From the IMG/VR virus record IMGVR_UViG_3300032214_000715, positions 62,001-126,000 of that record: a DNA stretch of 64,000 bases. One strand, 5' to 3'. The DNA is from a virus. The translations under genes and the position numbers were made by a program. The notes beneath the pieces were generated by a model. That model saw nothing but the letters and a program-made list of their open reading frames with translations. It had not been told where the DNA came from and ran no database searches. This document shows, piece after piece, positions 9,363-22,126 of this stretch (position 1 is the stretch's first letter; every line of letters starts with the position of its first letter).

Positions 9363-9397
9363 AAAAAAGCACCCGAAGGTGCTTTTAGGTTTTTTCT
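9363..9397 (-). terminator. Rho-independent terminator after the tmRNA gene
   Basis: A GCACC-UUCG-GGTGC hairpin on the minus strand, extended by A-U pairs and followed by a T run. It closes the tmRNA transcription unit. The UUCG loop is on the minus strand. Confidence 0.9.
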
Positions 9398-9655
9398 GTT
9401 GCCCGGTATTTCCTACCGCGATAGCCGGTTTAGGCAGCCATCAGGAATGCTTCATTGTTAGCATTTAAAGGTTTTGCTTCTACAGTCGAGATATCTCAAC
9501 ATTAACGACTTCTGCTTTGCCGATTCTAATCATTTCTTATTAGCTCCGTCGAATCCTTTCATCCCCATAAAAAACATTATATTGCTTTTTATGAAAATGG
9601 TGGAGATGCCGGCATACGATAGCCGGGTCCGCAACTCATCAGATAATGACTTTCA
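9380..9655 (-). ncRNA. ssrA: Circularly permuted tmRNA (ssrA)
   Basis: Read on the minus strand, the acceptor piece comes first. It has a T-arm-like CCGGC...GCCGG hairpin and then CATCTCC-A-CCA, ending at 9599. After a 25-30 base spacer comes the usual tmRNA 5' start GGGGATGAAAGGATTCGACGG at about 9566. GGGGATG pairs with CATCTCC to form the acceptor stem. The coding piece holds the tag frame AKPLNANNEAFLMAA followed by TAA, then a CGGTA/TACCG hairpin and the terminator. This order is that of two-piece (permuted) tmRNAs. The flanks around 9540 and 9640 can form helix P2. The exact mature ends are estimates. In trans-translation the RNA would rescue stalled ribosomes. Confidence 0.82.
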
Positions 9656-9666
9656 AGGAAAATATC

Positions 9667-10353
9667 CTAGCGAATATTTTTATTTATCTCAATCATTCTG
9701 CCAATTTTTATTAGTTCAGTTTCATATAGCATTCTTCTTTCGTGTGATTTTTTACCTTCGTCAAGATTTACTAAACAACCACTATGAATTATAAGCCCAA
9801 AAATATCAATTAGCTTGGATTCTATCGACAATGCTTCATTTTTTGTCATGTTTTCTTTAAGAATAGATACTGAAATTTCAGAACCAGATTTTTTTATTTT
9901 TTGACGATATTTTCTATGCGAATCATTTCTATCTAAATCGTATGCTCTAGATCCTTGACCCATTCCTATATAAAATGGCTGATGCTGCATTCCAATCGTC
10001 GCCGCAAAAGTAGTGACTCCGTGTTTTCCTATAGCTATTTTTTTAGAAGGATCACAGTGAGCATAAACATAATAAGAATTATCAGTGACGTCTTCGTTAT
10101 ATAAATGAAGAATATCTGTGTTGTAAATGTTGACGCACGACTCAAATACTTCTTTTGAATGCTTATTCTTAGAATAATGACCGTGATTGGATCTCAAATT
10201 ACCTAACATATTTTTTGACCACGTCAGTAATTTTTTTAGTTCTTCTTCTGATTGCGAATCAACTTCTATATTCCATATAGAAGTATTACGTATCTGACCT
10301 TTAGTGTCAGTGACCTGTTTTCTTTTTATTTCCATACTAGTAGTATAAGACAT
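9667..10353 (-). CDS. GIY-YIG endonuclease
   Basis: A 228-residue protein. The GIY-YIG core is YYVYAHCDPSKK (residues about 94-105), then FYIGMGQGSRAYDLDRN, and later ALSIESKLIDIFG and LVNLDEG. The N-terminal third is basic and probably binds DNA. A TTGACT-16-TATACT promoter overlaps its first codons, so initiation may occur at a second ATG (MEIKRKQV, 10335). The gene ends just before the tmRNA acceptor piece, as if it were inserted next to that RNA gene. Confidence 0.85.
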   Translation of the reverse strand: MSYTTSMEIKRKQVTDTKGQIRNTSIWNIEVDSQSEEELKKLLTWSKNMLGNLRSNHGHYSKNKHSKEVFESCVNIYNTDILHLYNEDVTDNSYYVYAHCDPSKKIAIGKHGVTTFAATIGMQHQPFYIGMGQGSRAYDLDRNDSHRKYRQKIKKSGSEISVSILKENMTKNEALSIESKLIDIFGLIIHSGCLVNLDEGKKSHERRMLYETELIKIGRMIEINKNIR

Positions 10354-11643: not shown

Positions 11644-11719
11644 TGGAGCGTCCGCCCGGAAATCGAACCGGGTACTGGAACTTGGAAGGATCCTGTGTTT
11701 CCGCTTACACCACGAACGC
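11644..11719 (-). tRNA. tRNA-Gly(UCC)
   Basis: Full cloverleaf with a 7-bp acceptor stem and encoded CCA. The anticodon loop is CTTCCAA, giving UCC. One T-T mismatch sits in the anticodon stem. It is the last tRNA of the minus-strand cluster. Confidence 0.9.
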
Positions 11720-11727
11720 ATTTATTT

Positions 11728-11802
11728 TGGAGCAGGATATCGGGTTTGAACCGATGACATTCTCGTTGGCAACGAGACATTCTACCACTGAATTAATCCT
11801 GC
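11728..11802 (-). tRNA. tRNA-Gly(GCC)
   Basis: Full cloverleaf with encoded CCA. The anticodon arm CTCGT-TGCCAA-CGAG gives GCC. The T arm is ATCGG-TTCAAAC-CCGAT. Confidence 0.93.
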
Positions 11803-11810
11803 GCATTAAT

Positions 11811-11969
11811 CTATTTGTTACTATACTTCCAATCAACTACTTGCCAATACCCTTCACGATATTCTTCAATCTGTCCCATATTATTTATTCGCAACGTTTC
11901 TTGCTGATTAACTTTTCTATCGTCAATTATAGCGTTCTCGTCAAGTTTGTCAAGTACAACATTTTCCAT
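11811..11969 (-). CDS. Small hypothetical protein, 52 aa
   Basis: The start MENVVLDKLDENAIIDDR lies exactly 5 bases after a late-promoter-like TGTAAATA, so the message may be leaderless. The C-terminus is QIEEYREGYWQVVDWKY. A longer in-frame start lies upstream of the promoter and is not used here. Function unknown. Confidence 0.5.
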   Translation of the reverse strand: MENVVLDKLDENAIIDDRKVNQQETLRINNMGQIEEYREGYWQVVDWKYSNK

Positions 11970-11974
11970 AATAC

Positions 11975-11982
11975 TATTTACA
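11975..11982 (-). promoter_or_regulatory. Late-promoter-like box TGTAAATA
   Basis: Differs by one base from the T4 late consensus TATAAATA. Five bases separate it from the ATG at 11969. Confidence 0.4.
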
Positions 11983-12066
11983 CACCGTCTTATCGTGTGA
12001 AAAAATATACTTAAGTACATAACACTGATCAACAGTACTACTTAAATAAGTCATAAGGAGTCTAGC

Positions 12067-12351
12067 ATGAGCAAAGATCGCGAATTATTACAACGATACC
12101 TTCAAGTTATTAACGAAGCCACTACAGTAATCGCAGAGAAGTGGGGCGTAAGCGGAGCAGTAAATCCACGCGAACAGGGTAAATACGCTGGCAAAACAAA
12201 AGAAGAGTTACTGAAATCATATAACGCTCTTAAACGTAGCGGACCACATCCACGTAACAGTCCCGAATACGGTCGCATGCGTGAATTAGCATTTGCTATA
12301 CGTGCCAAGAGTGGATGGGGCAAAGTTGGAGAAGACTATAGCGAAGAGTAA
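12067..12351 (+). CDS. Small modular phage protein, 94 aa
   Basis: Plus-strand gene with a strong SD (aaggag) before the ATG. The core, GKYAGKTKEELLKSYNALKR followed by GPHPRNSPEYGRMRELAFAI, is a module I associate with repeat-bounded (QGVAEG) modules of environmental phages. Here it stands alone. It is followed within 3 bases by another plus-strand frame. Function unknown. Confidence 0.75.
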   Translation: MSKDRELLQRYLQVINEATTVIAEKWGVSGAVNPREQGKYAGKTKEELLKSYNALKRSGPHPRNSPEYGRMRELAFAIRAKSGWGKVGEDYSEE

Positions 12352-12354
12352 TAT

Positions 12355-12558
12355 ATGCCGCCGTGCGACTTCATCACTCTGTATGAAATAGGAGTTGGAT
12401 CATTAGCGGTACGACACAGTGAAATTACAACGATTGAACTTACCGCAGAATGCGCTAGTCGCATTACATTAAGCAATGGGTATAGCAAAGTAGTACAAGA
12501 AAATCCAACTAGAATATTGTTCTTAATCAACGCAGCACAAGAATTGTGTAAAGATTAA
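12355..12558 (+). CDS. Hypothetical protein, 67 aa
   Basis: The gene follows the previous plus-strand gene after 3 bases and has gaagag as a possible ribosome site. It contains beta-rich SLAVRHSEITTIELTAE and a helical end. It converges on the SET-domain gene with a 4-base overlap of stops. No family recognised. Confidence 0.55.
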   Translation: MPPCDFITLYEIGVGSLAVRHSEITTIELTAECASRITLSNGYSKVVQENPTRILFLINAAQELCKD

Positions 12559-13049
12559 GAATCCCAACTCAATCTAGATGTTTTCATTGCCGGAGCGCCC
12601 GCGTATTTCTTAACAATTTCTTCTCCAGCATCTATAAATCTAAGCGCTCGTAGTCCAACTACATTATTGGTAGTGTCAATGACTTCCTCAGCATTGGGTC
12701 TTTCGCTGTGATTGGATAATAAGAATGAGCTGATATGTATCACTCCAGTACTCTCACTGTATCTCCATCTTTTTGTCTTAGCAAACACAGCAGCATCTTC
12801 TGGTGATAATTTATATTCTATTCTACCAATTGGTATGACATGCTGATTATTGATCCAACGAAGACCCATCATTTTTACGAACCTAGTGTTCTTAATTATC
12901 TGCCAGTCTTCATCATCTATTTTTACAACTGGATCTAGAACAATTAATTCTCCATTCTGAATTGGAACAGAAGCAAATAATCCATTGCCCGCACTCTTAA
13001 TTCGTGACTTGGCCATATAACTCTTTGATGTTACTTCATTAATACGCAT
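12555..13049 (-). CDS. SET-domain protein (putative lysine methyltransferase)
   Basis: The SET-domain motifs are visible: SRIKSAGNGLFASVPIQNGE at the N-terminus, SNHSERPNAEEV (the N-H-S cofactor-binding motif) near residue 112, and LRFIDAGEEIVKKYAG near the end. The 164-residue length fits a minimal SET domain. In phages its target is unknown; modifying host or virion proteins is possible. The ATG lies 5 bases after an ATAAATA box, suggesting a leaderless late message. Confidence 0.75.
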   Translation of the reverse strand: MRINEVTSKSYMAKSRIKSAGNGLFASVPIQNGELIVLDPVVKIDDEDWQIIKNTRFVKMMGLRWINNQHVIPIGRIEYKLSPEDAAVFAKTKRWRYSESTGVIHISSFLLSNHSERPNAEEVIDTTNNVVGLRALRFIDAGEEIVKKYAGAPAMKTSRLSWDS

Positions 13050-13054
13050 ATATG

Positions 13055-13061
13055 TATTTAT
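13055..13061 (-). promoter_or_regulatory. T4-type late promoter
   Basis: ATAAATA placed 5 bases from the SET gene ATG. By T4 rules transcription would begin at the A of the ATG. Confidence 0.6.
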
Positions 13062-13075
13062 GTTAGAAATAAACT

Positions 13076-13149
13076 TGGTGCTCCTAGCAAGAATCGAACT
13101 TGCGATTCGGCTTTACCAAAGCCGTAGTATGCCATTTACTTATAGGAGC
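13076..13149 (-). tRNA. tRNA-Thr(GGU)
   Basis: Full cloverleaf, encoded CCA. Anticodon arm CGGCT-TTGGTAA-AGCCG gives GGU. Confidence 0.93.
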
Positions 13150-13151
13150 AG

Positions 13152-13241
13152 TGGCGGGCAAGGTGGGATTCGAACCCACGGAAGAGTTTCCCCTTCGCCA
13201 GTTTTCAAGACTGGAGCCATAATCCACTCGGCCACCTGCCC
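13152..13241 (-). tRNA. tRNA-Ser(UGA)
   Basis: Class II tRNA with long variable arm and encoded CCA. Anticodon arm CCAGT-CTTGAAA-ACTGG gives UGA. Confidence 0.95.
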
Positions 13242-13295
13242 ATATTCTTTAACACACTATTTATCACATTGTACACCGTGTGTTATGGTGAAGTT

Positions 13296-13369
13296 TGGCG
13301 TCCCTCCAGGGAGTCAAACCCCGGCCCTCAGTTTTGGAGACTGATGTGCTATCGTAACACTTGAGAGAC
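13296..13369 (-). tRNA. tRNA-Trp(CCA)
   Basis: Full cloverleaf with encoded CCA and G discriminator. Anticodon arm TCAGT-CTCCAAA-ACTGA gives CCA. Confidence 0.93.
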
Positions 13370-13376
13370 AATAATT

Positions 13377-13466
13377 TGGCGGAGTGACTGGGACTTGAAC
13401 CCAGAAGCCTGCTTTCGCAAACCGACGGATTAGCAATCCGCTCCAATACCATTATGGGACCACTCC
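13377..13466 (-). tRNA. tRNA-Ser(GCU)
   Basis: Class II tRNA with encoded CCA and G discriminator. The anticodon loop TTGCTAA gives GCU. Confidence 0.95.
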
Positions 13467-13471
13467 AATTT

Positions 13472-13556
13472 TGGTGCCCCAGGTCGGACTCGAACCGACA
13501 CGCCTTTCGGCAATGGCTTCTAAGACCATCGTGGCTACCAGTTACACCACCGGGGC
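13472..13556 (-). tRNA. tRNA-Leu(UAG)
   Basis: Class II tRNA with encoded CCA. Anticodon arm ATGGT-CTTAGAA-GCCAT gives UAG. Confidence 0.95.
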
Positions 13557-13567
13557 AATTTAAATTT

Positions 13568-13645
13568 TGGCAGGGGATCCAGGATTTGAACCTGGGAATG
13601 TCGGAATCAAAATCCGATGCCTTAGACCAACTTGGCTAATCCCCT
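13568..13645 (-). tRNA. tRNA-Gln(UUG)
   Basis: Full cloverleaf with encoded CCA. Anticodon arm TCGGA-TTTTGAT-TCCGA gives UUG. Its 5' end overlaps the last codons of the HNH gene upstream. Confidence 0.92.
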
Positions 13646-14086
13646 TTTGTTGTATTTTCCTCTTTTTTTACCGGATAAAGATGTTGAAATATTCTTTTTG
13701 TGTTCTTCTGATTTTGGTTTTGTGGATCCTTTATTCTTTTTCCCATTTTCAGATAACATATTTTTAGTCTGTTCTTCTCCGTATTTAAGAACAGATCGCT
13801 CGTATGGAGAAAGATGTGTTCCACGGTCTACTTGATCTAAGTGATTATCTTTATATGATCCCCAATAGATATGATTTGGATTTGAACATTTAGGATTATT
13901 ACAGGCATGACACACGATAGCATTGTCTCCCTTTTTAGGGATAGATGTATTAAGAGTGAATGCCAAAAGCCCAGTTAAATGATAAGAATATTTCAATCCT
14001 CTTTCGTCACATTTTTCATATAGTTTAATATGCGTCATTCTTTCATCTTTTGAACTAAACATATATTCTTTAATATCAATTGGCAT
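13622..14086 (-). CDS. HNH homing endonuclease inside the tRNA cluster
   Basis: The start MPIDIKEYMFSS at 14086 has aaagga before it. A longer reading runs through tRNA sequence and is rejected. The core is CHACNNPKCSNPNHIYWGSYKDN, a zinc-ribbon HNH (NxxH...N) of the type found in phages, followed by a lysine-rich NUMOD3-like tail (SEEHKKNISTSLSGKK). The stop lies inside the tRNA-Gln gene. A tRNA 5' half is left just upstream, as if the gene had replaced the 3' half. Confidence 0.85.
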   Translation of the reverse strand: MPIDIKEYMFSSKDERMTHIKLYEKCDERGLKYSYHLTGLLAFTLNTSIPKKGDNAIVCHACNNPKCSNPNHIYWGSYKDNHLDQVDRGTHLSPYERSVLKYGEEQTKNMLSENGKKNKGSTKPKSEEHKKNISTSLSGKKRGKYNKRGLAKLV

Positions 14087-14122
14087 AATAATTCCTTTGT
14101 TTTTATTATTTAGTAAAACAAC

Positions 14123-14157
14123 ATAAATTCTATGCTCTCCCAATTGAGCTAACCCCC
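14123..14157 (-). pseudogene. tRNA 5' half (remnant)
   Basis: GGGGGTTA followed by a perfect D arm (GCTC...GAGC) looks like the first third of a tRNA. The sequence then changes to AT-rich leader of the HNH gene. No matching 3' half is found nearby, so this is a broken tRNA at an endonuclease insertion. Confidence 0.6.
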
Positions 14158-14165
14158 ATCTGAAT

Positions 14166-14235
14166 AAAACAGGATGCTTTTTACGTTTCAAATTAAAAGT
14201 TTGATGTATAAAGTTTGCTGTACGCATCCTAAAAT
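14166..14235 (-). repeat. Spacer hairpin, copy 1
   Basis: AGGATGC at 14171 pairs with GCATCCT at 14224, with an inner TCAAA/TTTGA stem. A second copy near 14.6 kb has GGATCC arms instead, a paired change that supports RNA structure. Confidence 0.6.
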
Positions 14236-14236
14236 C

Positions 14237-14331
14237 TGGACCGTCGGACAGGATTCGAACCTGCATCAGTATACAGTGATACCACTCCAGTTACCTTTGT
14301 CCGCGTTCGTAGCGCGAGGGGATACCGACGG
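14237..14331 (-). tRNA. tRNA-like gene of unusual architecture, isotype unclear
   Basis: It has a perfect 7-bp acceptor stem (CCGTCGG/CCGACGG), a normal T arm (GCAGG-TTCGAAT-CCTGT) and encoded CCA. The middle does not fold as a normal tRNA. One hairpin, TCGCG-CTACGAA-CGCGG, looks like an anticodon arm for Arg(ACG), but then no D arm is left and the variable region is 35 bases. Alternatively this hairpin is an insert in the D loop of a tRNA with TCC/GGA D stem. I cannot choose. Confidence 0.6.
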
Positions 14332-14341
14332 ATTGTATTCT

Positions 14342-14417
14342 TGGTGCCGCCTCTAGGGATTGAACCTAGTTCTCTGGTGCTTCAAACCAGCGTGAGGACC
14401 ACCTTCACCAAAGCGGC
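14342..14417 (-). tRNA. tRNA-Phe(GAA)
   Basis: Full cloverleaf, encoded CCA. Anticodon arm CTGGT-TTGAAGC-ACCAG gives GAA. Confidence 0.94.
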
Positions 14418-14431
14418 TAAAACTTCTTAGG

Positions 14432-14503
14432 GGTGACCAACGGAATTCGAATCCGTACTATCACGGTCACAGCATGAGGTGCTAACCATTACACTATGGT
14501 CAC
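14432..14503 (-). tRNA. tRNA-His(GUG)
   Basis: Cloverleaf with GTGACCA/TGGTCAC acceptor and C discriminator, as in bacterial His tRNA. The loop CTGTGAC gives GUG. The 3' end reads CCT, so CCA is not encoded. The base before position 1 is A, so the usual extra G is not encoded either. Confidence 0.88.
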
Positions 14504-14519
14504 TCCTAAGCAGTCTTTT

Positions 14520-14594
14520 TGGTGGAGGATACCGGGGTCGAACCGGTGACTATGCCTTGCAAGGGCATCGTGTTCCCAACTATACCAATCCCCC
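14520..14594 (-). tRNA. tRNA-Ala(UGC)
   Basis: Full cloverleaf, encoded CCA. Anticodon arm ATGCC-CTTGCAA-GGCAT gives UGC. Confidence 0.94.
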
Positions 14595-14600
14595 AATAAA

Positions 14601-14666
14601 ACAACAGGATCCTTATTTTTTCAATTACAAGTTGAATTTTAAAATTTGCTGTAAGGATCCTAAAAC
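14601..14666 (-). repeat. Spacer hairpin, copy 2
   Basis: AGGATCC at 14606 and GGATCCT at 14655 pair around an inner TTCAA/TTGAA stem. It matches copy 1 in layout and in the flanks tttgctgta and taaaa. Confidence 0.6.
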
Positions 14667-14668
14667 TT

Positions 14669-14745
14669 TGGCGCACCGTAGGGGACTTGAACCCCTGGCC
14701 TCGGCAGTGACAGTGCCGCGATCTAACCAACTGATCTAACGGTGC
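14669..14745 (-). tRNA. tRNA-Asp(GUC)
   Basis: Full cloverleaf, encoded CCA, G discriminator. Anticodon arm CGGCA-CTGTCAC-TGCCG gives GUC. Confidence 0.94.
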
Positions 14746-14752
14746 GGAAATT

Positions 14753-15029
14753 TGGTGGGACCAGGGGGGTTCGAACCCCCGACCAACGGATTAACCTACC
14801 ACTATAGTTTTCACTACCAGTTTCCTGTTTGTGGTCTGGACTATACCTTCATCGTATCATTTCTGACTTAGATGCCCGCCGTCTAGTCTCTACACGTTCC
14901 CATTACTGGGCTTCGCTCGGTATCGCCATTTTACAGGGTTCACCGAATTTGACGGGTTCTACTTACAAAATTTCTTTTGTAGCACTCCTATTTTAAAGTC
15001 CGCTGCTCTACCGACTGAGCTATAGTCCC
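14753..15029 (-). tRNA. tRNA-Lys(UUU) interrupted by a group I intron
   Basis: Exon 1 runs from GGGACTA to ...GCGGACTT and exon 2 from TTAATCCG to the encoded CCA. Joined, they give the anticodon arm GCGGA-CTTTTAA-TCCGT with anticodon UUU. The insertion lies in the anticodon loop, a favoured site of bacterial group I introns. The gene has its own promoter at 15050-15078. Confidence 0.93.
14795..14995 (-). other. Group I intron in tRNA-Lys
   Basis: About 201 bases. It follows a T and ends in G, as group I introns do. It contains the conserved core segments AGAGACTAGACGGCGGGC and GAAGGTATAGTCC, which form P7 and flank P3. It has no open reading frame. Boundaries are inferred from restoring the tRNA. 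Confidence 0.9.
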
Positions 15030-15049
15030 TTTATCAATCAACAGAACAC

Positions 15050-15078
15050 AGTGTACTCGTTAGGGTAATTACTGTCAA
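15050..15078 (-). promoter_or_regulatory. Sigma-70-like promoter for tRNA-Lys and downstream
   Basis: TTGACA, 17 bp, TACACT. It lies inside the tRNA cluster about 20 bases before tRNA-Lys. Confidence 0.75.
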
Positions 15079-15088
15079 CAACTATCGG

Positions 15089-15164
15089 TGGTCTCCGTGC
15101 CCGGATTTGAACCGGGACCGCTCCGCCCCAAACGGAGTATGCAACCAGGTAACACTTCACAGAG
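15089..15164 (-). tRNA. tRNA-Pro(UGG)
   Basis: Full cloverleaf, encoded CCA. Anticodon arm CTCCG-TTTGGGG-CGGAG gives UGG. Confidence 0.94.
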
Positions 15165-15193
15165 ATAAAATTTCTTTTATTTTACACATTATG

Positions 15194-15201
15194 TATAAAT
15201 A
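15194..15201 (+). promoter_or_regulatory. T4-type late promoter (plus strand)
   Basis: A perfect TATAAATA about 100 bases before the endonuclease gene. A 9-bp hairpin (GATTGTTTG/CAAACAATC) follows in the leader. Confidence 0.65.
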
Positions 15202-15300
15202 AACGGTGAATCATAAGATTGTTTGATTAGGGCCAAACAATCAACCACACGAGGAGTGATGGCTGTCTGATTCGCAAGTATTTATAACGAGGAGAATCAA

Positions 15301-16182
15301 ATGAAATATAAATCACCACTGTGTTCATGCATAGTATGTCATGAAACAAAATCAGCAAAAGGCATATTTACCCATTATATAGTAAGTCACACTGAAGAAG
15401 GGTCAAACAGATTACAGCGTGGACAAAAAAATGGCGTCGAAAATGCAAAAAAATCAAACAATAAAAATTTCACTGAGAGAATTAAAAAATATGATCAGTC
15501 TCCAAAACAATGTATAAATTGCAACAAAAAATTAGATTATGACAAAAAATTTAGTAAATTTTGCAATCACTCTTGCTCCGCGTCTTACAACAATAATTTG
15601 CGCAGTGCCGATACAATTAGAAAACAAGGTAATTCTCTGAAAGAAACTCTTAAAAATATTTTTGAGTCAATCTCTAAAATAAAATTTAAAACTTGTACTT
15701 ATTGTTATAAAAATTACACATGGCACAAAGGAATGTCATTTAAATTTTGCTGTATAATCTGCAAAGAAAAGGAACAATTCCATAGATTATCTACTCTTGC
15801 AAAAGATCGTGGTCTTGGAGGGGTCAGACCGTCTAAACGAATACTGTACAAAGGAGTATTGCTTGGGTCCACATATGAAGTTAAATTGGCAGAATCACTT
15901 GATGATAATTGCATCAAATGGATAAAGCCAGCACGATTGAACTACGTGGATCCATTCGGAAAAGAGCGCACCTATGAAGCAGATTTTTATCTGCCAGAAT
16001 ATAATGTTTATCTTGACCCTAAAAATGACTTTTTAATTAATAATATTAATCCAAGATTAGGTTTTAAAGATTCAGAAAAAATTCATTTAGTATGTAAACA
16101 AAATGATGTTCAAATTTTCATACTTGATAAAACGCAATTAACATGGCAGCATGTTAAAAACATTATTGATGGTTCCTCGTGA
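15301..16182 (+). CDS. Putative homing endonuclease with zinc fingers
   Basis: A 293-residue plus-strand gene with a strong SD (gaggag). Several cysteine/histidine clusters are visible: CSCIVCHE at the start, QCINCNKK, FCNHSC, CTYCYKNY. The C-terminal part has GVLLGSTYEVKLAESL and YEADFYLPEYNVYLDPKND, where D and D-P-K could be a PD-(D/E)XK-type active site. The last codons (GSS-stop) lie in the 3' end of the convergent tRNA-Val. This is a free-standing mobile gene within the tRNA cluster. Confidence 0.7.
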   Translation: MKYKSPLCSCIVCHETKSAKGIFTHYIVSHTEEGSNRLQRGQKNGVENAKKSNNKNFTERIKKYDQSPKQCINCNKKLDYDKKFSKFCNHSCSASYNNNLRSADTIRKQGNSLKETLKNIFESISKIKFKTCTYCYKNYTWHKGMSFKFCCIICKEKEQFHRLSTLAKDRGLGGVRPSKRILYKGVLLGSTYEVKLAESLDDNCIKWIKPARLNYVDPFGKERTYEADFYLPEYNVYLDPKNDFLINNINPRLGFKDSEKIHLVCKQNDVQIFILDKTQLTWQHVKNIIDGSS

Positions 16183-16243
16183 AGGAATCGAACCTCCGTC
16201 TGTAGAATGTAAATCTACGGCCCTACCATTAGACGAACGAGGA
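16170..16243 (-). tRNA. tRNA-Val(UAC)
   Basis: Full cloverleaf, encoded CCA. Anticodon arm GTAGA-TTTACAT-TCTAC gives UAC. Its CCA end overlaps the 3' end of the plus-strand endonuclease gene by 13 bases. Confidence 0.94.
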
Positions 16244-16270
16244 AAATTAAAAAAATAAGTATAACAGGGT

Positions 16271-16353
16271 TGCGGAACCTGGATTCGAACCAGAACTTGC
16301 ATTAGATGTCTCAGGGTTATGAGCCCCGCGTTTTGCCAATTAAACTATTCCGC
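16271..16353 (-). tRNA. tRNA-Met/Ile2(CAU) with long variable region
   Basis: Acceptor GCGGAAT pairs with GTTCCGC. The anticodon arm CGGGG-CTCATAA-CCCTG gives CAU. The variable region is about 17 bases, long for a Met tRNA, and the T arm to acceptor junction is one base short. CCA is not encoded (ACC follows the discriminator). Confidence 0.8.
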
Positions 16354-16363
16354 TGTATTCTAT

Positions 16364-16723
16364 TTATAAACCTAACGTCTTGTAACCATATTTCTTTGCT
16401 ACTTTGACAGAAACGCCAAGCGCAGCAGCACATGGAAACCGAACATGTTTCTTGAACCGATATCCATTTAAGGTGAATGGTTTCAACACTGTGTCACAAT
16501 TCCAACAATTTCGTTGACAACTGATGTAACCAAGTTCTTCTAACTGATTACGCAACTTAGCGAACTCATCGTGATCTTTATTGCTATGTGTAATCATTTT
16601 ATGGTGACCACTGAGAATTTTAATCAAATCATCTGGTGTAGGGTTCTCACGATCAGACAACAATGTATATTCTGTCGTGACATGTACATCAGTTAGGTAT
16701 TGTTCATCAATAGTGAAATCCAT
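16364..16723 (-). CDS. Hypothetical protein, 119 aa
   Basis: The start MDFTIDEQYLTDVH at 16723 has agaggt before it. The C-terminal part contains CQRNCWNCDTVLKPFTLNGY, a cysteine cluster that may bind a metal, and a basic end. It lies between tRNA genes on the same strand. Function unknown. Confidence 0.7.
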   Translation of the reverse strand: MDFTIDEQYLTDVHVTTEYTLLSDRENPTPDDLIKILSGHHKMITHSNKDHDEFAKLRNQLEELGYISCQRNCWNCDTVLKPFTLNGYRFKKHVRFPCAAALGVSVKVAKKYGYKTLGL

Positions 16724-16846
16724 AATTACCTCTAAAAATATTTCTGTATACACCTGCTGACATGGGCACTAAGGTTAATAGTTTGTGCCTAGATTTTTTA
16801 CAGCCGATGAATCATTGTCACGACATAGCTAATAGCGACAACTTTA

Positions 16847-16886
16847 CCTGACGATTTTATAAATATCCTGACGATTTTATAAATAT
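16847..16886 (+). repeat. Tandem 20-bp repeat carrying two late-promoter boxes
   Basis: cctgacgattttataaatat occurs twice in a row, each copy with a plus-strand TATAAATA. No plus-strand gene follows, so these would read antisense to the tRNA genes. Confidence 0.7.
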
Positions 16887-16971
16887 AAAATCAGCATCTA
16901 ACTCATGTGTCTTACCACACTATATATTAAATAATATTTTAACACATCAGCATGTGTATACAGAAACAAAA

Positions 16972-17058
16972 TGGAGTGCCGAGAGGGATTTGAACCCCCG
17001 ATGTCCTTTCGGATAGGGATTTGCAATCCCTCACATTCGACCGCTCTGTCATCGGCAC
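16972..17058 (-). tRNA. tRNA-Cys(GCA), class II form
   Basis: Acceptor GTGCCGA/TCGGCAC, encoded CCA and U discriminator as in Cys tRNAs. Anticodon arm AGGGA-TTGCAAA-TCCCT gives GCA. It has a Ser-like long variable arm (ATCCGAAAGGACAT), which normal Cys tRNAs lack. Confidence 0.88.
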
Positions 17059-17134
17059 ATCGTATTCTTAAGGGGCACAGTGTCTGTCGTTTAAGAGTAG
17101 GCATCCTTCAGCCACTCCCCCAGATAAATCTATT

Positions 17135-17212
17135 TGGTGGTGATGGTTGGAATTGAACCAACCCCATTCTTCCTTATGAGGGAAGCGTACAGACCATCTA
17201 TACTACATCACC
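17135..17212 (-). tRNA. tRNA-Met/Ile2(CAU)
   Basis: Full cloverleaf, GGTGATG/CATCACC, encoded CCA. Anticodon arm CTTCC-CTCATAA-GGAAG gives CAU. It may be an elongator Met or a lysidine-modified Ile tRNA. Confidence 0.9.
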
Positions 17213-17219
17213 TATTATT

Positions 17220-17296
17220 TGGTACCCACGGTTGGATTTGAACCAACGACTTTCGCCTTATCAAGACGCTACTCTGACCAACTGAGTTACGCGGGT
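17220..17296 (-). tRNA. tRNA-Ile(GAU)
   Basis: Full cloverleaf with encoded CCA. The anticodon loop TTGATAA gives GAU. The outer pair of the anticodon stem is mismatched. Confidence 0.88.
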
Positions 17297-17302
17297 ATAT
17301 AA

Positions 17303-17372
17303 CCATATTTGAACACACTCAGGAGGTCAAATTCCTTTTACCAACCAGTTATGGTGAATGTGTTCAAATATA
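17303..17372 (-). repeat. Stem-loop cassette A
   Basis: ATATTTGAACACA at 17305 pairs exactly with TGTGTTCAAATAT at 17359, enclosing 41 bases. First member of the array of long hairpins in this region. Confidence 0.8.
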
Positions 17373-17376
17373 GCGA

Positions 17377-17467
17377 CCCTTTGTGGGCAGGATTCGAACC
17401 TGCAAGTGGCTTCTATTTCCACTGGCCCTATTAGAGGCCTATGTTTACCATATTCCATCACCACGGG
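17377..17467 (-). pseudogene. Decayed class II tRNA (Leu-like)
   Basis: The T arm (GCAGG-TTCGAAT-CCTGC), D arm and a 5-bp variable arm (AGTGG/CCACT) are present. The acceptor has AAA inserted between CCAC and GGG, and the anticodon loop is only six bases (CTAATA). It may be a worn tRNA-Leu(UAA), for which an intact intron-containing copy exists at 20.1 kb. Confidence 0.6.
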
Positions 17468-17563
17468 TCATCGGAGTCATGACTTCCGATTATGATCGAG
17501 GTTAATTACTCCTCTCTGTTAGACGCAATTTGAGTACAACTCAAGCGGCTCTTTCTAACATTT
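17468..17563 (-). ncRNA. Structured spacer between tRNA remnant and cassette C
   Basis: Holds several hairpins: ATCGGA/TCCGAT around 17470, GAGG/CCTC, and a long GTTAGA...TCTAAC arm with an inner TTGAGT-ACA-ACTCAA. No open frame and no tRNA fit. Confidence 0.5.
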
Positions 17564-17654
17564 ACCATAGTTCAGCACACTCAAACGGGTCTTTTCGCCA
17601 TTTCTCTTCCATGCCGTTCCACGTGAGAATGGGTAGAATGCGCTGAACTATGGT
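17564..17654 (-). repeat. Stem-loop cassette C
   Basis: Arms ACCATAGTTCAGCAC and GCGCTGAACTATGGT enclose about 60 bases with an inner CCATTCTC/GAGAAATGG stem. The arm sequence differs from cassette A, with matching changes on both sides. Confidence 0.85.
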
Positions 17655-17734
17655 TAGTACGAGACACGATGAGCAATCCCAACTCCTCATGACCAATCGG
17701 TCACTTAGGTTAAACCTCATGCCACTTATGTACT

Positions 17735-17816
17735 ACCATATTTGAACACACTCGCTCCCGCAATTAGACGGTTGCATTAACATCAAAAGGATGTGACGAA
17801 TGTGCTCAAATATGGT
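17735..17816 (-). repeat. Stem-loop cassette D
   Basis: Arms ACCATATTTGAACACACT and AATGTGCTCAAATATGGT. The mismatches on the plus strand are A-C, which read as G-U wobbles on the minus strand. The right arm overlaps the CCA of the next tRNA-like gene. Confidence 0.85.
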
Positions 17817-17891
17817 ACCCAGTATGGAATCGAACCGATTTCTCCAGCCGCACTTAAGAGGGTGGCGTCTTAACCAATAGACGAACTGAGT
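17813..17891 (-). tRNA. Degenerate tRNA, perhaps Lys(CUU)
   Basis: A fully paired acceptor (ACTCAGT/ACTGGGT), a D stem CGTC/GACG and encoded CCA are present. The T stem has only two good pairs and the anticodon loop is eight bases (CCTCTTAA). A proper tRNA-Lys(CUU) exists at 19.3 kb, so this may be a decaying copy. Confidence 0.5.
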
Positions 17892-17894
17892 ATA

Positions 17895-17965
17895 ACCATA
17901 TTTGAACACACTACCCAGCGTATCTAGAAAACTGTTTGTACATTAGCAATGTGCTCAAATATGGT
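17895..17965 (-). repeat. Stem-loop cassette E
   Basis: Same arm sequence as cassette D, 18 bp with two G-U pairs on the minus strand, enclosing 35 unrelated bases. Confidence 0.85.
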
Positions 17966-17981
17966 GAAACTACGTTTTCAA

Positions 17982-18191
17982 TTACATCAACCAAATGCCG
18001 TCATAATAATATTGCCAGTGATAAGAAACACTACCAGTATCCCATTTAACCATAATTTCGTTATCATCACGGCGGCTGGCTTGTTCTATTGGAATAAGTT
18101 TATATATCATTCCCTCATTACCAGTATAAGAAGATTTTACTCTATCTCCGATTCTGAGAGACTGAAATGGAACATTCGATAGTTTTTGCAT
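17982..18191 (-). CDS. Hypothetical protein, 69 aa
   Basis: A strong SD (aggagg) precedes the ATG. The sequence is beta-rich (SLRIGDRVKSSYTGNEGMIY, then EIMVKWDTGSVSYHW), resembling a small SH3/KOW-like barrel. It is the only clear gene between cassettes E and F. Function unknown. Confidence 0.75.
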   Translation of the reverse strand: MQKLSNVPFQSLRIGDRVKSSYTGNEGMIYKLIPIEQASRRDDNEIMVKWDTGSVSYHWQYYYDGIWLM

Positions 18192-18264
18192 TATGGCCTC
18201 CTATGCCATATTAAGATCCATTAAAAAATCCAAACAGTAAAATCTTTTGTGATTACTCTCCTAC

Positions 18265-18378
18265 TATATTTGAAGATACTAGTAGACTTGCGGTCGCTTC
18301 ATCGGTGTCGTTGTGCGTCCCACTCGCATCCATTTTGTCGCTCTTTCGAGAACACCAAAACTAATACCTTCAAATATA
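18265..18378 (-). repeat. Stem-loop cassette F
   Basis: TATATTTGAAG pairs with CTTCAAATATA around about 92 bases. A shorter stem than in the other cassettes. Confidence 0.65.
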
Positions 18379-18555
18379 GGCCCCACCGTTAACTGGTCAT
18401 ATCCCTAGAGTTACTTTTAGAAGGATTGTAGCACGGTGGGCACACCTGTCCTTCTCTACACTGTGTTTACTACTATTGCCTGCCCTAGGGATTAGGTACC
18501 TACCCTAGCGACTCATAGTGGATTTGTAGATAATCCGCTGCTCTTGCTAGTTTAC

Positions 18556-18648
18556 ACCATATTTTAGCAGACACGGGCCGATTCCTTATCCGTGTTTATT
18601 CTTCCCTGTGCTGGCCAGTCGGGTCGAGGCAAACTGCTAAAATATGGT
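18556..18648 (-). repeat. Stem-loop cassette G
   Basis: ACCATATTTTAGCAG and CTGCTAAAATATGGT pair over 15 bp. The arms differ from D/E at several bases, with matching changes. The loop holds CACGG/CCGTG. Confidence 0.85.
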
Positions 18649-18833
18649 GACCTGTGTTCGTATGCGGTATTGATTGACATACGGGAAAGGTCAGCGTTCC
18701 CTCTATCGGCCCTGATTTTACAGCTAGCGCGAAATTGGCGTCGGTGGTCCTAGACCTGAAGTGGTGCGGGGTCATTTCGCACGATTGCCACAAGGCTTTC
18801 GCCATCTTTCACTTACCGACATTGAATTATCAC

Positions 18834-19232
18834 TTATGATAGAAGTAATTTTTTTGATCCTTGCAGGAAATTCTGCAATTCTTTGTTTGTGCAAGCAATA
18901 GGCAAAGGAACTTTTCTCTTAACCTGCTGAACATATTTACTATCTTTGTTATTGGCATACCAATCTAGATTATCTTCCTGCATAGCAAACAAGACTGAAA
19001 TAAAACGATCTTCTTCGCCAGAATTGCTACCCACTAGTTTATATCCAACACCTAAGTTTTTTGGATGAAATTTATCCACCCATGATAAAAATTCGTTTGT
19101 TGTTATTCCTTGTGGGAAGAGATCCAAATTAGCCACACATCGCATGACATAATTTCCATACTGATCGGATTTAATCAGTTTTTTAGTTCCAACTGGAATG
19201 AGATGATCTTTTGATAAATTGAATTGTGTCAT
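18834..19232 (-). CDS. Hypothetical protein, 132 aa
   Basis: The start MTQFNLSKDHLIPVG at 19232 follows aaaaggt; a longer reading runs into the tRNA-Lys gene. The protein has a compact alpha/beta pattern (LGVGYKLVGSNSGEEDRFIS) and a basic C-terminus. It lies among tRNA genes. I do not recognise the family. Confidence 0.7.
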   Translation of the reverse strand: MTQFNLSKDHLIPVGTKKLIKSDQYGNYVMRCVANLDLFPQGITTNEFLSWVDKFHPKNLGVGYKLVGSNSGEEDRFISVLFAMQEDNLDWYANNKDSKYVQQVKRKVPLPIACTNKELQNFLQGSKKLLLS

Positions 19233-19257
19233 ATTGACCTTTTTAAGATAACTTGTT

Positions 19258-19332
19258 TGGTAGACCACCACGGTATCGAACCATGTTCTGTAGAGTAAGA
19301 GTCTACTGCATCACCATTAATGCTTGTGATCT
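19258..19332 (-). tRNA. tRNA-Lys(CUU)
   Basis: Full cloverleaf with encoded CCA. Anticodon arm GTAGA-CTCTTAC-TCTAC gives CUU. Its D arm (GCAT-TAATGGTG-ATGC) is nearly the same as that of the next tRNA-Tyr. Confidence 0.93.
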
Positions 19333-19338
19333 ATTGAT

Positions 19339-19423
19339 TGGTGGAGTGTACTGGGATCGAACCAGTCGTGCCCGAAGGCGGCGGATTTACAGTCCACTGC
19401 ATCACCATTGATGCTTCCACTCC
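19339..19423 (-). tRNA. tRNA-Tyr(GUA)
   Basis: Class II tRNA with encoded CCA. Anticodon arm GTGGA-CTGTAAA-TCCGC gives GUA. Confidence 0.94.
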
Positions 19424-19433
19424 ATTATTCTTT

Positions 19434-19533
19434 ACCATAGTTCAACACACTACCAGTCCCGGGGACTTGAACCCCTTTGCTCTAGATAGTTTCCTGACAT
19501 TTCGGTCTGGCAAGTAATATGCTGAACTATGGT
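19434..19533 (-). ncRNA. Stem-loop cassette H with T-arm-like core
   Basis: Outer arms ACCATAGTTCAACACACT and ATATGCTGAACTATGGT. Inside, CCAGACC pairs with GGACTGG (one mismatch) and GGGG-TTCAAGT-CCCC looks like a tRNA T arm, but only about 28 bases lie between, too few for D and anticodon arms. Cassette K near 21.6 kb is a close copy with matched changes. Confidence 0.75.
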
Positions 19534-19648
19534 GCCAATCATTTACATTGGCTTAGGGAATTTCGGTCCTCACGGGTGCTCCGCTACATACCACCCATCT
19601 ACCATACAAATTATCCGGTCTTTGTATGTAGACTTTTTACTCTCATTT
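19534..19648 (-). ncRNA. Structured spacer
   Basis: Contains GCCAAT-CATTTAC-ATTGGC right after cassette H and ATACAAA/TTTGTAT near 19615. No gene seen. Confidence 0.4.
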
Positions 19649-19724
19649 ACCATATTGAAACACACTACCGCAAACTTTCAATGCACGATGCAGTCTATGG
19701 CATCCGTAATGTGCTTCAATATGG
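19649..19724 (-). repeat. Stem-loop cassette I
   Basis: Arms ACCATATTGAAACACACT and AATGTGCTTCAATATGG; a further arm variant with matched changes. Confidence 0.85.
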
Positions 19725-19725
19725 C

Positions 19726-19821
19726 GGCAAGTTTCGTGATAGTTTGATGACGTTGTAGAGGTTCACTATGGCGTGAACTTACAGAGCGCAATAACTTCTC
19801 CCTATCAAAAACCCACTTGCC
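19726..19821 (-). ncRNA. Branched structured element
   Basis: GGCAAGT/ACTTGCC closes a structure with an inner GATAG/CTATC stem and a GTTCAC-TATGGC-GTGAAC hairpin. A three-level fold without coding potential. Confidence 0.5.
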
Positions 19822-19825
19822 TATT

Positions 19826-19939
19826 ACCATAGTTCAACACACTGATGAGAATCACACTCCCCTATTTCTCACAATAGGTTACGCCTAGGAGTCACACACA
19901 GATTCGGCTGTGCTGCGATACAATACGCTGAACTATGGT
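19826..19939 (-). repeat. Stem-loop cassette J
   Basis: Arms ACCATAGTTCAACACACT and AATACGCTGAACTATGGT. The loop has a CCTATT/AAATAGG hairpin. The right arm covers the CCA of tRNA-Glu. Confidence 0.85.
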
Positions 19940-20010
19940 ACCCCTGAACGGTTACGATCCGTCTTCTCAGCCTTGAAAGGGCCGTGTTCTAGCCACTAAA
20001 CTACAGGGGC
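19936..20010 (-). tRNA. tRNA-Glu(UUC)
   Basis: Full cloverleaf with encoded CCA. Anticodon arm CGGCC-CTTTCAA-GGCTG gives UUC. The T loop is ATCGTAA, not the usual TTCGAAN. It is the first tRNA after the promoter-boxB-boxA leader at 20.03-20.1 kb. Confidence 0.9.
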
Positions 20011-20024
20011 AAATACTCTATGCT

Positions 20025-20056
20025 GATTCTTAAAGAACTGTTGCTGAACTCTCAGC
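20025..20056 (-). promoter_or_regulatory. boxB-boxA leader 1
   Basis: On the minus strand GCTGA-GAGT-TCAGC is followed after two or three bases by GTTCTTTAAGAATC, like the rRNA antitermination boxA (TGCTCTTTAACAAT). It lies between a consensus promoter and tRNA-Glu. AGCATAGAGT follows. Confidence 0.65.
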
Positions 20057-20066
20057 GTATGAACAT

Positions 20067-20095
20067 ATTATATGCTAACGCTGATTTATTGTCAA
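20067..20095 (-). promoter_or_regulatory. Perfect consensus sigma-70 promoter
   Basis: TTGACA, 17 bp, TATAAT. It drives leader 1, tRNA-Glu and the cassettes below. Confidence 0.9.
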
Positions 20096-20118
20096 CAGTC
20101 TTTTGTCAATTTGTTGTT

Positions 20119-20439
20119 TGGTGCCCGGAGCCGGAATCGAACCGGCACGGCCGAAGCCGAGGGATTTTAAGCGTGTTGTCTCAAAGTTTCCAATGAGCAC
20201 GGACTATCTCTTTACCTTCAACATTACTTGTTAAGGCAGTGGGCGTTCTATGCTGGTTATTAAGAGGGCTTTACCTCTCCAGTAGTCTCTACACCTTCAC
20301 TGAATGTATTCAGTGCTTGGCTCGCGATTGCCATTTTACAGGCTCTCCCGAATTAACCCACAGTTTACTCACACATTTCTGTGTGAGGGGGACGGGCTTT
20401 CTGGTCCTCCCTTGTGTCTACCTATTTCACCATCCGGGC
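20119..20439 (-). tRNA. tRNA-Leu(UAA) interrupted by a group I intron
   Basis: Exon 1 (GCCCGGATGGTG...ACAAGGGA) and exon 2 (CTTAAAATCCCTCGG... to CCA) resemble bacterial tRNA-Leu(UAA) closely. Joined, they give the loop CTTAAAA, anticodon UAA, and a class II variable arm. The encoded CCA is present. Confidence 0.92.
20172..20407 (-). other. Group I intron in tRNA-Leu
   Basis: About 236 bases ending in G, with core pieces GTAGAGACTACTGG and AAAGAGATAGTCC (P7) and AAAATGGCAATC. The base before the 5' splice site seems to be A and not the usual U, so the boundary may be off by a few bases. No reading frame inside. Confidence 0.85.
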
Positions 20440-20508
20440 GTTTTGTTAACTTTCCATTAATTATGTTTGTAATTTTATAGACAATATAATACATTTTAAT
20501 AACATGGT

Positions 20509-20607
20509 TAATGAAGTTTGCTGGCCTGATTGGGATCGAACCAATGACCTAACGATTAACAGTCGTTTGCTACTACCGTCTGAGCTACAGGCCAGCAAAC
20601 TTCACTA
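20509..20607 (-). repeat. Long stem enclosing tRNA-Asn
   Basis: The tRNA acceptor stem is extended outward to about 20 bp by flanking arms (TAATGAAGTTTGC / GCAAACTTCACTA). The single plus-strand A-C mismatch is a G-U pair on the minus strand. It looks like a processing stem. Confidence 0.75.
20521..20594 (-). tRNA. tRNA-Asn(GUU)
   Basis: Cloverleaf with TGGCCTG/CAGGCCA acceptor and G discriminator. Anticodon arm AACGA-CTGTTAA-TCGTT gives GUU. CCA is not encoded. Confidence 0.9.
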
Positions 20608-20611
20608 ATTT

Positions 20612-20689
20612 TGGTGGGAGCGGTCGGACTCGAACCGACATCTGCGCGATTATGAGTCGCGAGTCATTAACCAATTAGACGACACTCCC
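20612..20689 (-). tRNA. tRNA-Met/Ile2(CAU)
   Basis: Full cloverleaf with encoded CCA. Anticodon arm CGCGA-CTCATAA-TCGCG gives CAU. Third CAU tRNA in the window. Confidence 0.9.
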
Positions 20690-20710
20690 AATCTTTTATC
20701 TAACAAACAA

Positions 20711-20739
20711 AGTATAACTGTATTATTTACAGTTGTCAA
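20711..20739 (-). promoter_or_regulatory. Sigma-70-like promoter for tRNA-Met and tRNA-Asn
   Basis: TTGACA, 17 bp, TATACT. The -35 overlaps the end of the endonuclease gene. Confidence 0.85.
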
Positions 20740-21521
20740 CTAGTTCTTAGAATTTTTTCTAGTTCATCAACAATCTTATTCAGATCATTTTCTACATTAT
20801 CGCTCCAAATGTATCTTATTTTAAATCCACACATTTGAGCAAGTTGTTCTTTCTTTCTATCCTTCTGCCAGATTTCTTCTCTAGTTCCCATAGATTTATA
20901 TGGTACCTTGAATTCTTCTGTTAAAGTCTTAGGATGATACGCTATTCCTTGATATTCAACAATGTATTTTATATCTAGAAACACCAAATCATAAAAAAAT
21001 ATTTGAGAATCATCCCTTAAAAAGTATTCTCTTCCATTTTTATGAAAGAAAACATTAGTGACTTTTGGAATCTGTTCTAGAAGACGCTCAATTACAACTT
21101 GACTTTCAACCGAGGCATATGAAGTCCTCGGATTTCTCAGATTTCCCTCGCGTATCAATTGTCGAGTGTGCGCGGAAACTTCTGGTTTGTCTAAGCCCAA
21201 TTCTGCTGCCTTTGAGAACTTATTACGCCCGATCCCTAATCCTTTTTTACCCTTCATTCCATAAGAAGGGTTCTTAGTCTTTTTTTCGGGATTTTTCTTA
21301 CATAATGATTCGTGCTGAGAAATGCTATTTGAATTTTTTCCTACGAAATCACAAAACTTACATTTGTATTCAGCAAGCTTAAACTGGTCTGCTTTTTCTC
21401 TAACTAGAGAAGAGAACAATTTTCCAGTTTTACATTGCTTGGATCCATAATGGATCTTTAGATTATTAGACGTTATCTCATTTTTACATGAGATACAAGA
21501 ACATAAATATTTTGCTACCAT
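20736..21521 (-). CDS. Homing endonuclease, Vsr/EDxHD-like with zinc fingers
   Basis: The 261-residue protein has N-terminal zinc-finger-like clusters (CSCISCKNE; CKFCDFVGKNSNSISQHE). It then has a linker with NUMOD-like NRFSKAAELGL pattern and a nuclease domain: FFYDLVFLDIKYIVEYQG, YHPKTL, and KDRKKEQLAQMCGFKIRYIW. This resembles Vsr-like (EDxHD) homing nucleases such as I-Bth0305I. The ATG is 5 bases after an ATAAATA box, so late and possibly leaderless. It sits free-standing in the tRNA cluster. Confidence 0.75.
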   Translation of the reverse strand: MVAKYLCSCISCKNEITSNNLKIHYGSKQCKTGKLFSSLVREKADQFKLAEYKCKFCDFVGKNSNSISQHESLCKKNPEKKTKNPSYGMKGKKGLGIGRNKFSKAAELGLDKPEVSAHTRQLIREGNLRNPRTSYASVESQVVIERLLEQIPKVTNVFFHKNGREYFLRDDSQIFFYDLVFLDIKYIVEYQGIAYHPKTLTEEFKVPYKSMGTREEIWQKDRKKEQLAQMCGFKIRYIWSDNVENDLNKIVDELEKILRTS

Positions 21522-21526
21522 ACATC

Positions 21527-21533
21527 TATTTAT
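21527..21533 (-). promoter_or_regulatory. T4-type late promoter for the endonuclease gene
   Basis: ATAAATA, 5 bases before the ATG. Confidence 0.6.
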
Positions 21534-21559
21534 GCTTTGACCTATTGTTCTATGTTTTT

Positions 21560-21659
21560 ACTATATTTGAACACACTGCCAGTCCCGGGGACTTGAACCC
21601 CTTTGCTCTTGATAGTTTCCCGACATTTCGGTCCGGCAAGCAATGCGCTCAAATATAGT
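21560..21659 (-). ncRNA. Stem-loop cassette K, twin of cassette H
   Basis: Outer arms ACTATATTTGAACACACT and AATGCGCTCAAATATAGT. The interior repeats that of cassette H (GGGG-TTCAAGT-CCCC, CCGA...TCGG), with paired changes such as GCCGG against CTGGC. Confidence 0.75.
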
Positions 21660-21710
21660 ATCACGCTACGTCAACAGTGCTAGTATTTAGCACCTCAGTT
21701 GGCGTGATAC
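21658..21710 (-). ncRNA. Hairpin between leader 2 and cassette K
   Basis: GTATCACGC/GCGTGATAC, with an inner GTGCTA-GTATT-TAGCAC hairpin. Confidence 0.6.
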
Positions 21711-21723
21711 AAAAACTCTATGC

Positions 21724-21756
21724 TAATTTTTAAAGATCATCGCTGATTTCTCAGCG
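21724..21756 (-). promoter_or_regulatory. boxB-boxA leader 2
   Basis: CGCTGA-GAAA-TCAGCG then GATCTTTAAAAATTA and TAGCATAGAGT, matching leader 1 in order and spacing. Confidence 0.6.
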
Positions 21757-21764
21757 TTGAAGAC

Positions 21765-21793
21765 AGTATATCAGAGTTCTGATTTATTGTCAA
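21765..21793 (-). promoter_or_regulatory. Sigma-70-like promoter before leader 2
   Basis: TTGACA, 17 bp, TATACT. Confidence 0.85.
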
Positions 21794-21901
21794 GAAACTG
21801 CCAGGTAGCTTAATGTGTGATTTCCACTACCCTGTTACTCTGTATCAGTCTAGATTGCTCTAGCATCAACCTGCGTCACACTGTGTGCAGACAGTATCAT
21901 A

Positions 21902-21930
21902 ACTATATCAGGACTCCCATTTATTGTCAA
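21902..21930 (-). promoter_or_regulatory. Sigma-70-like promoter
   Basis: TTGACA, 17 bp, TATAGT. It reads into a stretch of about 110 bases before the next promoter. Confidence 0.7.
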
Positions 21931-21940
21931 CAACTCTCAA

Positions 21941-22055
21941 TGATTAGATCGAAATGCACTCGCATCTGCTTTTTGAGCCGCGTGTTCTACACCCTTGATT
22001 CCTAGACTAGTACTAGAGGCGTGTGCCCATTTACACTAGCACTTCGATCTAATCA
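21941..22055 (-). ncRNA. Stem-loop cassette L after leader 3
   Basis: TGATTAGATCGAAATGC and GCACTTCGATCTAATCA form a 17-bp stem (one G-U on the minus strand) around about 80 bases with some tRNA-like flavour but no clear cloverleaf. Confidence 0.75.
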
Positions 22056-22057
22056 CT

Positions 22058-22087
22058 GATTGTTAAAGAACTTGTTGATTTCTCAAC
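22058..22087 (-). promoter_or_regulatory. boxB-boxA leader 3
   Basis: GTTGA-GAAA-TCAAC then GTTCTTTAACAATC, very close to the proteobacterial rrn boxA. Confidence 0.7.
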
Positions 22088-22097
22088 TGTTAGAGAC

Positions 22098-22126
22098 AGT
22101 ATATCAGGGTTCTGATTTATTGTCAA
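22098..22126 (-). promoter_or_regulatory. Sigma-70-like promoter before leader 3
   Basis: TTGACA, 17 bp, TATACT. Confidence 0.88.

Follow-up and report, generated by a model that had tools for sequence, protein, structure and literature searches.

The usual T-loop of tmRNA consists of seven nucleotides and reads UUCRANY. According to PMC1168896 this loop is highly conserved, the same source describing a potential sixth T-stem pair for the tmRNA from Dehalococcoides. Permuted tmRNA genes—those with the acceptor piece encoded first—are represented in Rfam by RF04321 and RF01849, covering the alphaproteobacterial, betaproteobacterial and cyanobacterial types, and they are also found in phages, such as the Methylophilales phage Melnitz and related marine phages, which carry permuted tmRNAs with tags of their own (PMC9004378). 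According to the latter paper, 402 of the 18,146 phage genomes have a tmRNA, with 53 of the two-piece type in a total of 133 unique ones, 50 of them marine or aquatic, and the tmRNA database, built mainly from ARAGORN and BLASTN, gives 79 bacteriophage entries of all forms (PMC11915505). Since it is already in print (PMC9004378), the permuted phage tmRNA as such is a known kind, and the permuted-order pattern matches at least 120 viral stretches in IMG/VR. The novelty of the locus presented here, as far as searched, is a T-loop with an inserted base pair, no description of which was found in the titles and abstract openings of the open-access tmRNA and phage literature.

The permuted tmRNA of the window

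The window, i.e. the whole stretch of 64,000 nucleotides analysed, belongs to a record that also encodes a tail sheath, a tail tube and a tRNA array, and, because of the sheath and tube genes, the phage is considered contractile-tailed. At the locus, this phage, whose record covers at least 239 kb, carries a tmRNA gene in circularly permuted form. The gene was recognized by Rfam cmscan with both RF04321 (9661-9430(-), 82.7 bits against a cut-off of 47, E 2.5e-14) and RF01849 (9708-9385(-), 62.5 bits against a cut-off of 50), the former being the single RF04321 match across the whole virus record of 239,163 bases. Its features are as follows:

9598..9661, minus strand: 3' (acceptor) piece, encoded first (the RF04321 alignment starts at 9661, that of RF01849 at 9708)
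9614..9621, minus strand: 8-nt T-loop U-A-U-C-G-U-A-U with the inserted pair between A (loop position 2) and U (position 6), from the sequence and from covariation over 46 distinct T-arms
9567..9597, minus strand: intervening sequence of 31 nt, from CCA to the 5' start GGGG, from the sequence
9430..9566, minus strand: 5' (mRNA-like) piece as far as the tag stop, from RF04321, with the 3' end taken at the tag stop
9430..9477, minus strand: tag reading frame AKPLNANNEAFLMAA and stop, with the resume codon GCA and UAGAA before it, from translation
9365..9386, minus strand: intrinsic terminator-like hairpin AAAAGCACC-UUCG-GGUGCUUUU with a T-rich tail, from the terminator scan
9667..10353, minus strand: 228-residue upstream ORF, ending just 5' of the tmRNA, with a weak match to phrog_5356 (unknown function)

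The acceptor piece comprises the T-arm GGAC-CCGGC-UAUCGUAU-GCCGG, with the T-stem CCGGC/GCCGG, followed by the acceptor strand CAUCUCC, A73 and CCA; in the DNA, the T-arm and CATCTCC-A-CCA occupy 9630-9598(-). The 5' piece, running down from 9566(-), begins with GGGGATGAAAGGATTCGACGG (also given as GGGGAUGAAAGGAUUCGACGG) and is composed of the acceptor strand GGGGAUG, the 3-nt linker AAA, the D-loop GGAUUCGAC and the tag region. Together, GGGGAUG/CAUCUCC make an acceptor stem of 7 bp including G3-U70, which is followed by A73 and CCA.

The first-pass annotation, made from the sequence alone, had taken the locus for a circularly permuted tmRNA on a phage contig and had proposed the covariance models as a check; this identification holds, both models exceeding their cut-offs in the permuted order. 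Its further claims concerning the architecture are also confirmed: the acceptor piece CATCTCC-A-CCA is read from the minus strand ahead of the 5' start, the gene order is of the two-piece type, as seen from the RF04321 match and the 31-nt intervening piece, and the acceptor strands pair over the 7 bp given above. The proposed tag frame is recovered by translation as AKPLNANNEAFLMAA and stop at 9477-9430(-), and the UUCG terminator placed 3' of the tag corresponds to the hairpin at 9386-9365(-). The terminator scan gave two sites against a mean of 0.5 in shuffles, this hairpin being terminator-like also on the plus strand, and the upstream 228-residue ORF may be co-transcribed with the tmRNA.

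Compared with the RF04321 and RF01849 types, the window tmRNA shares the gene order, the acceptor stem with G3-U70, the CCA, the GG-UUCGAC start and the tag with its stop. It differs from them, however, by the 8-nt inserted-pair T-loop—the feature absent from the first-pass annotation—by the 3-nt D-loop linker, by its phage carrier and by the lack of an ARAGORN call, since ARAGORN run on the window did not call a permuted tmRNA gene at 9661-9430(-).

The inserted pair in the T-loop

The loop UAUCGUAU, with its eight nucleotides, departs from the 7-nt UUCRANY and reads U-N-UCR-N'-A-N, the N-N' pair being A-U. In a scan of permuted genes for 8-nt loops of free sequence, all nine loci obtained were U-N-UCR-N'-A (six UAUCGUA together with UCUCGGAU, UAUCAUAU and UCUCAGAU), which suggested U-N-UCR-N'-A-N as the general form, N being paired with N'. 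This form is shared by a group of phage tmRNAs, both one-piece and permuted; compared with the standard U54-UCR-A58-N-N, the loop lacks one 3' nucleotide and has gained a Watson-Crick pair N-N', which separates the U54/A58 position from the U55-C56-R57 turn. The T-arm is extended as in the tmRNA from Dehalococcoides, but the potential sixth pair described there belongs to the stem (PMC1168896), whereas the variant pair sits inside the loop.

To survey the group, IMG/VR was scanned with UAUCGUA fixed, giving 51 viral stretches (all matches), and with positions 2 and 6 freed, giving 64 stretches with a nucleotide other than A at position 2 and four with A at position 2 and a nucleotide other than U at position 6. 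Loci identical across ±60 nt were counted once. Requiring a T-stem paired 5/5 left 72 distinct loci, related to each other so that the counts do not stand for independent events, with the 2-6 pair being A-U in 39, C-G in 20 and U-A in 13, and mismatched in none. Among the 46 distinct T-arms (A-U 22, C-G 15, U-A 9), both sides of the pair have changed in 24 and one side in none, and none is unpaired. Over these 46, the structure as a whole scores 0.727 for covariation against 0.182 in shuffles, with the qualification that the T-stem figures carry a bias from the selection for 5/5 pairing, to which the 2-6 loop pair was not subject. The patterns prescribed positions 1, 3, 4, 5 and 7, whose conservation is therefore shown only by the nine loci, all permuted, of the scan with free loop sequence.

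The matches unpaired at 2-6 (one distinct CT and one distinct AA) were set aside as chance, with at most 1/5 T-stem pairs each, and the four stretches with A at position 2 and non-U at position 6 represent one T-arm sequence with 1/5 T-stem pairs, which is likewise chance-like. For the U-A class (TTTCGAAN), an alternative reading is a standard UUCGA core to which an outer U-A pair has been added, and this addition may have been the origin of the class.

With regard to loop length, the 93 distinct viral permuted loci among the matches listed include 84 with 7 nt, seven with 6 nt, one with 8 nt and one unassigned; the variant, at one of the 93 listed, is therefore rare among permuted viral tmRNAs. 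The 6-nt loops, found in L005, L012, L018, L050 and similar loci, read UUCRAN, which equals the 8-nt loop minus the inserted pair.

Concerning gene order, 37 of the 65 resolved distinct variant-loop loci are one-piece and 28 permuted, the remaining seven of the 72, several of them at contig ends, being without an assignable order. Both orders thus occur within the group, and loop and permuted order are therefore not linked in it; the permutation, the loop or both may have arisen or moved more than once. The variant-loop genes resemble the phage entries of the tmRNA database (PMC11915505) in being phage-borne and, in the 37 of 65 cases, one-piece. Between the acceptor strand and GG, the D-loop linker measures 3 nt in 63 of the 65 resolved variant loci (AAA in the window) and in 11 of the 84 distinct 7-nt-loop permuted loci among the matches listed, a contrast with a Fisher p of 8.6e-28 when the loci are treated as independent despite their relatedness.

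As for the tags, those predicted for the one-piece variant-loop genes L160, L164, L168, L177, L186 and similar are mutually similar and 33-35 residues long, which is much longer than the usual 10 residues. The permuted variant-loop genes L123, L125 and L163 have, in place of a short tag ending in AA, long open frames that end in AV or LV and have an FSAR motif in common.

The A-U form (UAUCGUA) was also sought in one genome per species from 84,980 species, yielding five stretches, of which L204 and L206 are credible, having a paired stem and the 5' half; L202, L203 and L205, also on genome contigs, have neither the fully paired (5/5) T-stem nor the 5' half and are attributed to chance. A cellular origin of the two credible loci was rejected, since both contigs bear phage-type genes—PHROG exonuclease and endonuclease VII genes in the case of L206, an adjoining phage-type RtcB in that of L204—and the metagenome-assembled genome (MAG) with L204 has a separate canonical tmRNA (L280). 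The wider loop pattern, including the C-G and U-A classes, was scanned through the phyla of both MAGs, where it was found in one of 395 genomes for L206 and one of 392 for L204, the matches being the already known contigs. The cellular loops from E. coli (L276) and from MAG copies (L277, L278 and L280) read TTCAACT or TTCGACT, and in the cellular tmRNA L279 (Chloroflexi) the loop is TTCGATT and the stem longer.

Most of the variant loci are recovered by Rfam models. In the first set of 50 records, 28 exceed the RF00023 cut-off and 17 that of RF04321, with none exceeding both (45 of 50 in total), and four of the five below cut-off are truncated, the contig ending close to the T-arm. The 45 records of the later scans gave 23 above RF00023 and 17 above RF04321, with one above both (39 of 45), or 37 of 39 when the T-stem is paired 5/5. 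For the 17 first-set loci spanning a whole contig, the Rfam match overlaps the variant T-arm in 14, the other three being cut by the contig end. ARAGORN, by contrast, called only four of the 72 variant loci (A-U 0/39, C-G 2/20, U-A 2/13); its yield was 85 of 86 for loci with the canonical loop and 23 of 33 for those with non-canonical loops of other kinds. Owing to the extra T-loop pair, nearly all variant-loop tmRNAs are therefore overlooked by the standard gene finder, which is a practical blind spot of ARAGORN-based annotation, both Pharokka (PMC9805569) and the huge-phage survey (PMC7162821) assigning tmRNA with this program. The Melnitz-type tmRNAs were counted with it as well (PMC9004378).

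Possible function and alternative readings

The best explanation overall, and in our judgement a highly probable one, is that the locus encodes a permuted phage tmRNA of the inserted-pair-loop group that would be cut into two, charged and used in host SmpB-dependent tagging with an elbow of possibly altered geometry. From known tmRNA biology, a single transcript ending at the UUCG hairpin would be cut by tRNA-processing enzymes, and the two resulting RNAs would be kept together by the acceptor stem. Charging would be performed by alanyl-tRNA synthetase via G3-U70 and A73, the role of these acceptor features for alanine being described in PMC3968760. With host SmpB, the charged tmRNA would then enter stalled ribosomes and add alanine and AKPLNANNEAFLMAA. 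An SmpB gene was not found in the record of 239,163 bases, nor in 48 further records carrying or related to such tmRNAs, these records being fragments.

As regards the elbow, the variant still has the U, C, R and A positions of the T-loop and the D-loop GG, and D-T loop contacts are required for SmpB binding according to PMC3968760. The inserted pair may raise the UCR turn while the bases contacting the D-loop GG are kept, and the shorter D-loop linker could compensate for this, so that the geometry of the elbow might be altered where SmpB binds. The best reading is that of a working phage tmRNA that probably uses host SmpB, with an elbow probably rebuilt at the SmpB binding site, and a phage T-loop insertion with perfect compensatory changes represents a natural experiment on the function of the tmRNA elbow.

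The strongest competitor to this reading, with a chance somewhat short of even, is an ordinary phage tmRNA whose T-loop has drifted neutrally, the pair being kept because the hairpin has to fold, but with SmpB binding, modification and activity all unaltered. Drift would fit the retention of the UCR turn, the U and A positions, the D-loop GG, G3-U70 and the tag, as well as the 6-nt UUCRAN loops in seven of the 93 distinct viral permuted tmRNAs listed, which indicate that loop length tolerates change; the same architecture, however, recurs at many loci in both gene orders, with the short D-loop linker, and is nearly absent in cellular genomes, which seems too orderly for it. A larger proposal, which we put forward tentatively and with some doubt, is that large phages share a distinct class of tmRNA—with the inserted T-loop pair, the short D-loop linker and both gene orders, and essentially absent from cellular chromosomes—whose relation to host SmpB or to host T-loop enzymes might have changed so that trans-translation during infection uses the phage tag.

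It is also conceivable, albeit unlikely, that the altered loop serves to escape host readers of the T-loop, be it modification by TrmA/TruB, T-loop-directed nucleases or mobile elements targeting the tmRNA T-loop. TrmA and probably also TruB modify the T-loop (PMC3968760), all 883 group I introns that PMC11915505 reports for tmRNA genes are inserted there, and the window phage has two Rfam group I introns, but the link from the loop to any of these agents is a conjecture here. Quite improbable is a decoy that would bind SmpB or ribosomes and inhibit host trans-translation, as is reported for phage DS6A, whose tmRNA-like gene has no tag (PMC11915505); the elbow would indeed be altered at the SmpB binding site, yet all the parts for full activity are present, i.e. 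a tag frame ending in AA, the resume codon, CCA, the discriminator A and the alanine identity pair. A decaying or mis-assembled tmRNA, which the rejection by ARAGORN might suggest, is scarcely credible and already contradicted by the perfect covariation of the T-stem and loop pair over many contigs and by L122, a separate IMG/VR contig with a T-arm identical to that of the window.

Relatives and genome context of the window phage

Among 50,697 deposited phages, no DNA match was found for the window tmRNA or for 25 kb of structural genes, and no blastn match for the variant tmRNA genes L186, L214, L197, L215 and L227. The best protein matches are to phages of Pseudomonas, Stenotrophomonas, Xanthomonas, Acidovorax, Sinorhizobium, Vibrio and Synechococcus, nearly all with less than 60% identity. 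A search for the tmRNA type next to the downstream ATPase gene of other contigs did not show it to be conserved there: the relatives L153, L154 and L156, found through this gene, have permuted tmRNAs without the inserted-pair loop, and the tmRNA type is therefore not tied to the ATPase neighbourhood. In both L154 and L156, the permuted tmRNA match (1501-2021) is 521 nt long, with an intervening sequence of more than 200 nt and an acceptor strand ending in GGUCC.

The tRNA-rich region of the window, 11644-25575(-), contains 26 tRNA genes by ARAGORN, those at 17379-17467 and 22709-22781 being without an assigned amino acid, and the two Rfam group I introns (14814-15005 and 20180-20414) are situated inside it. 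The NrdA-like ORF at 32817-36737 matches its family from residue ~131 only, the ORF next upstream (34639-35754) has a weak match to a homing endonuclease family, and nrdA may be split by an intron. Adjoining the tRNA genes, at 12555-13049, there is also a phage SET-domain protein (Pfam PF00856, E 3.3e-10).
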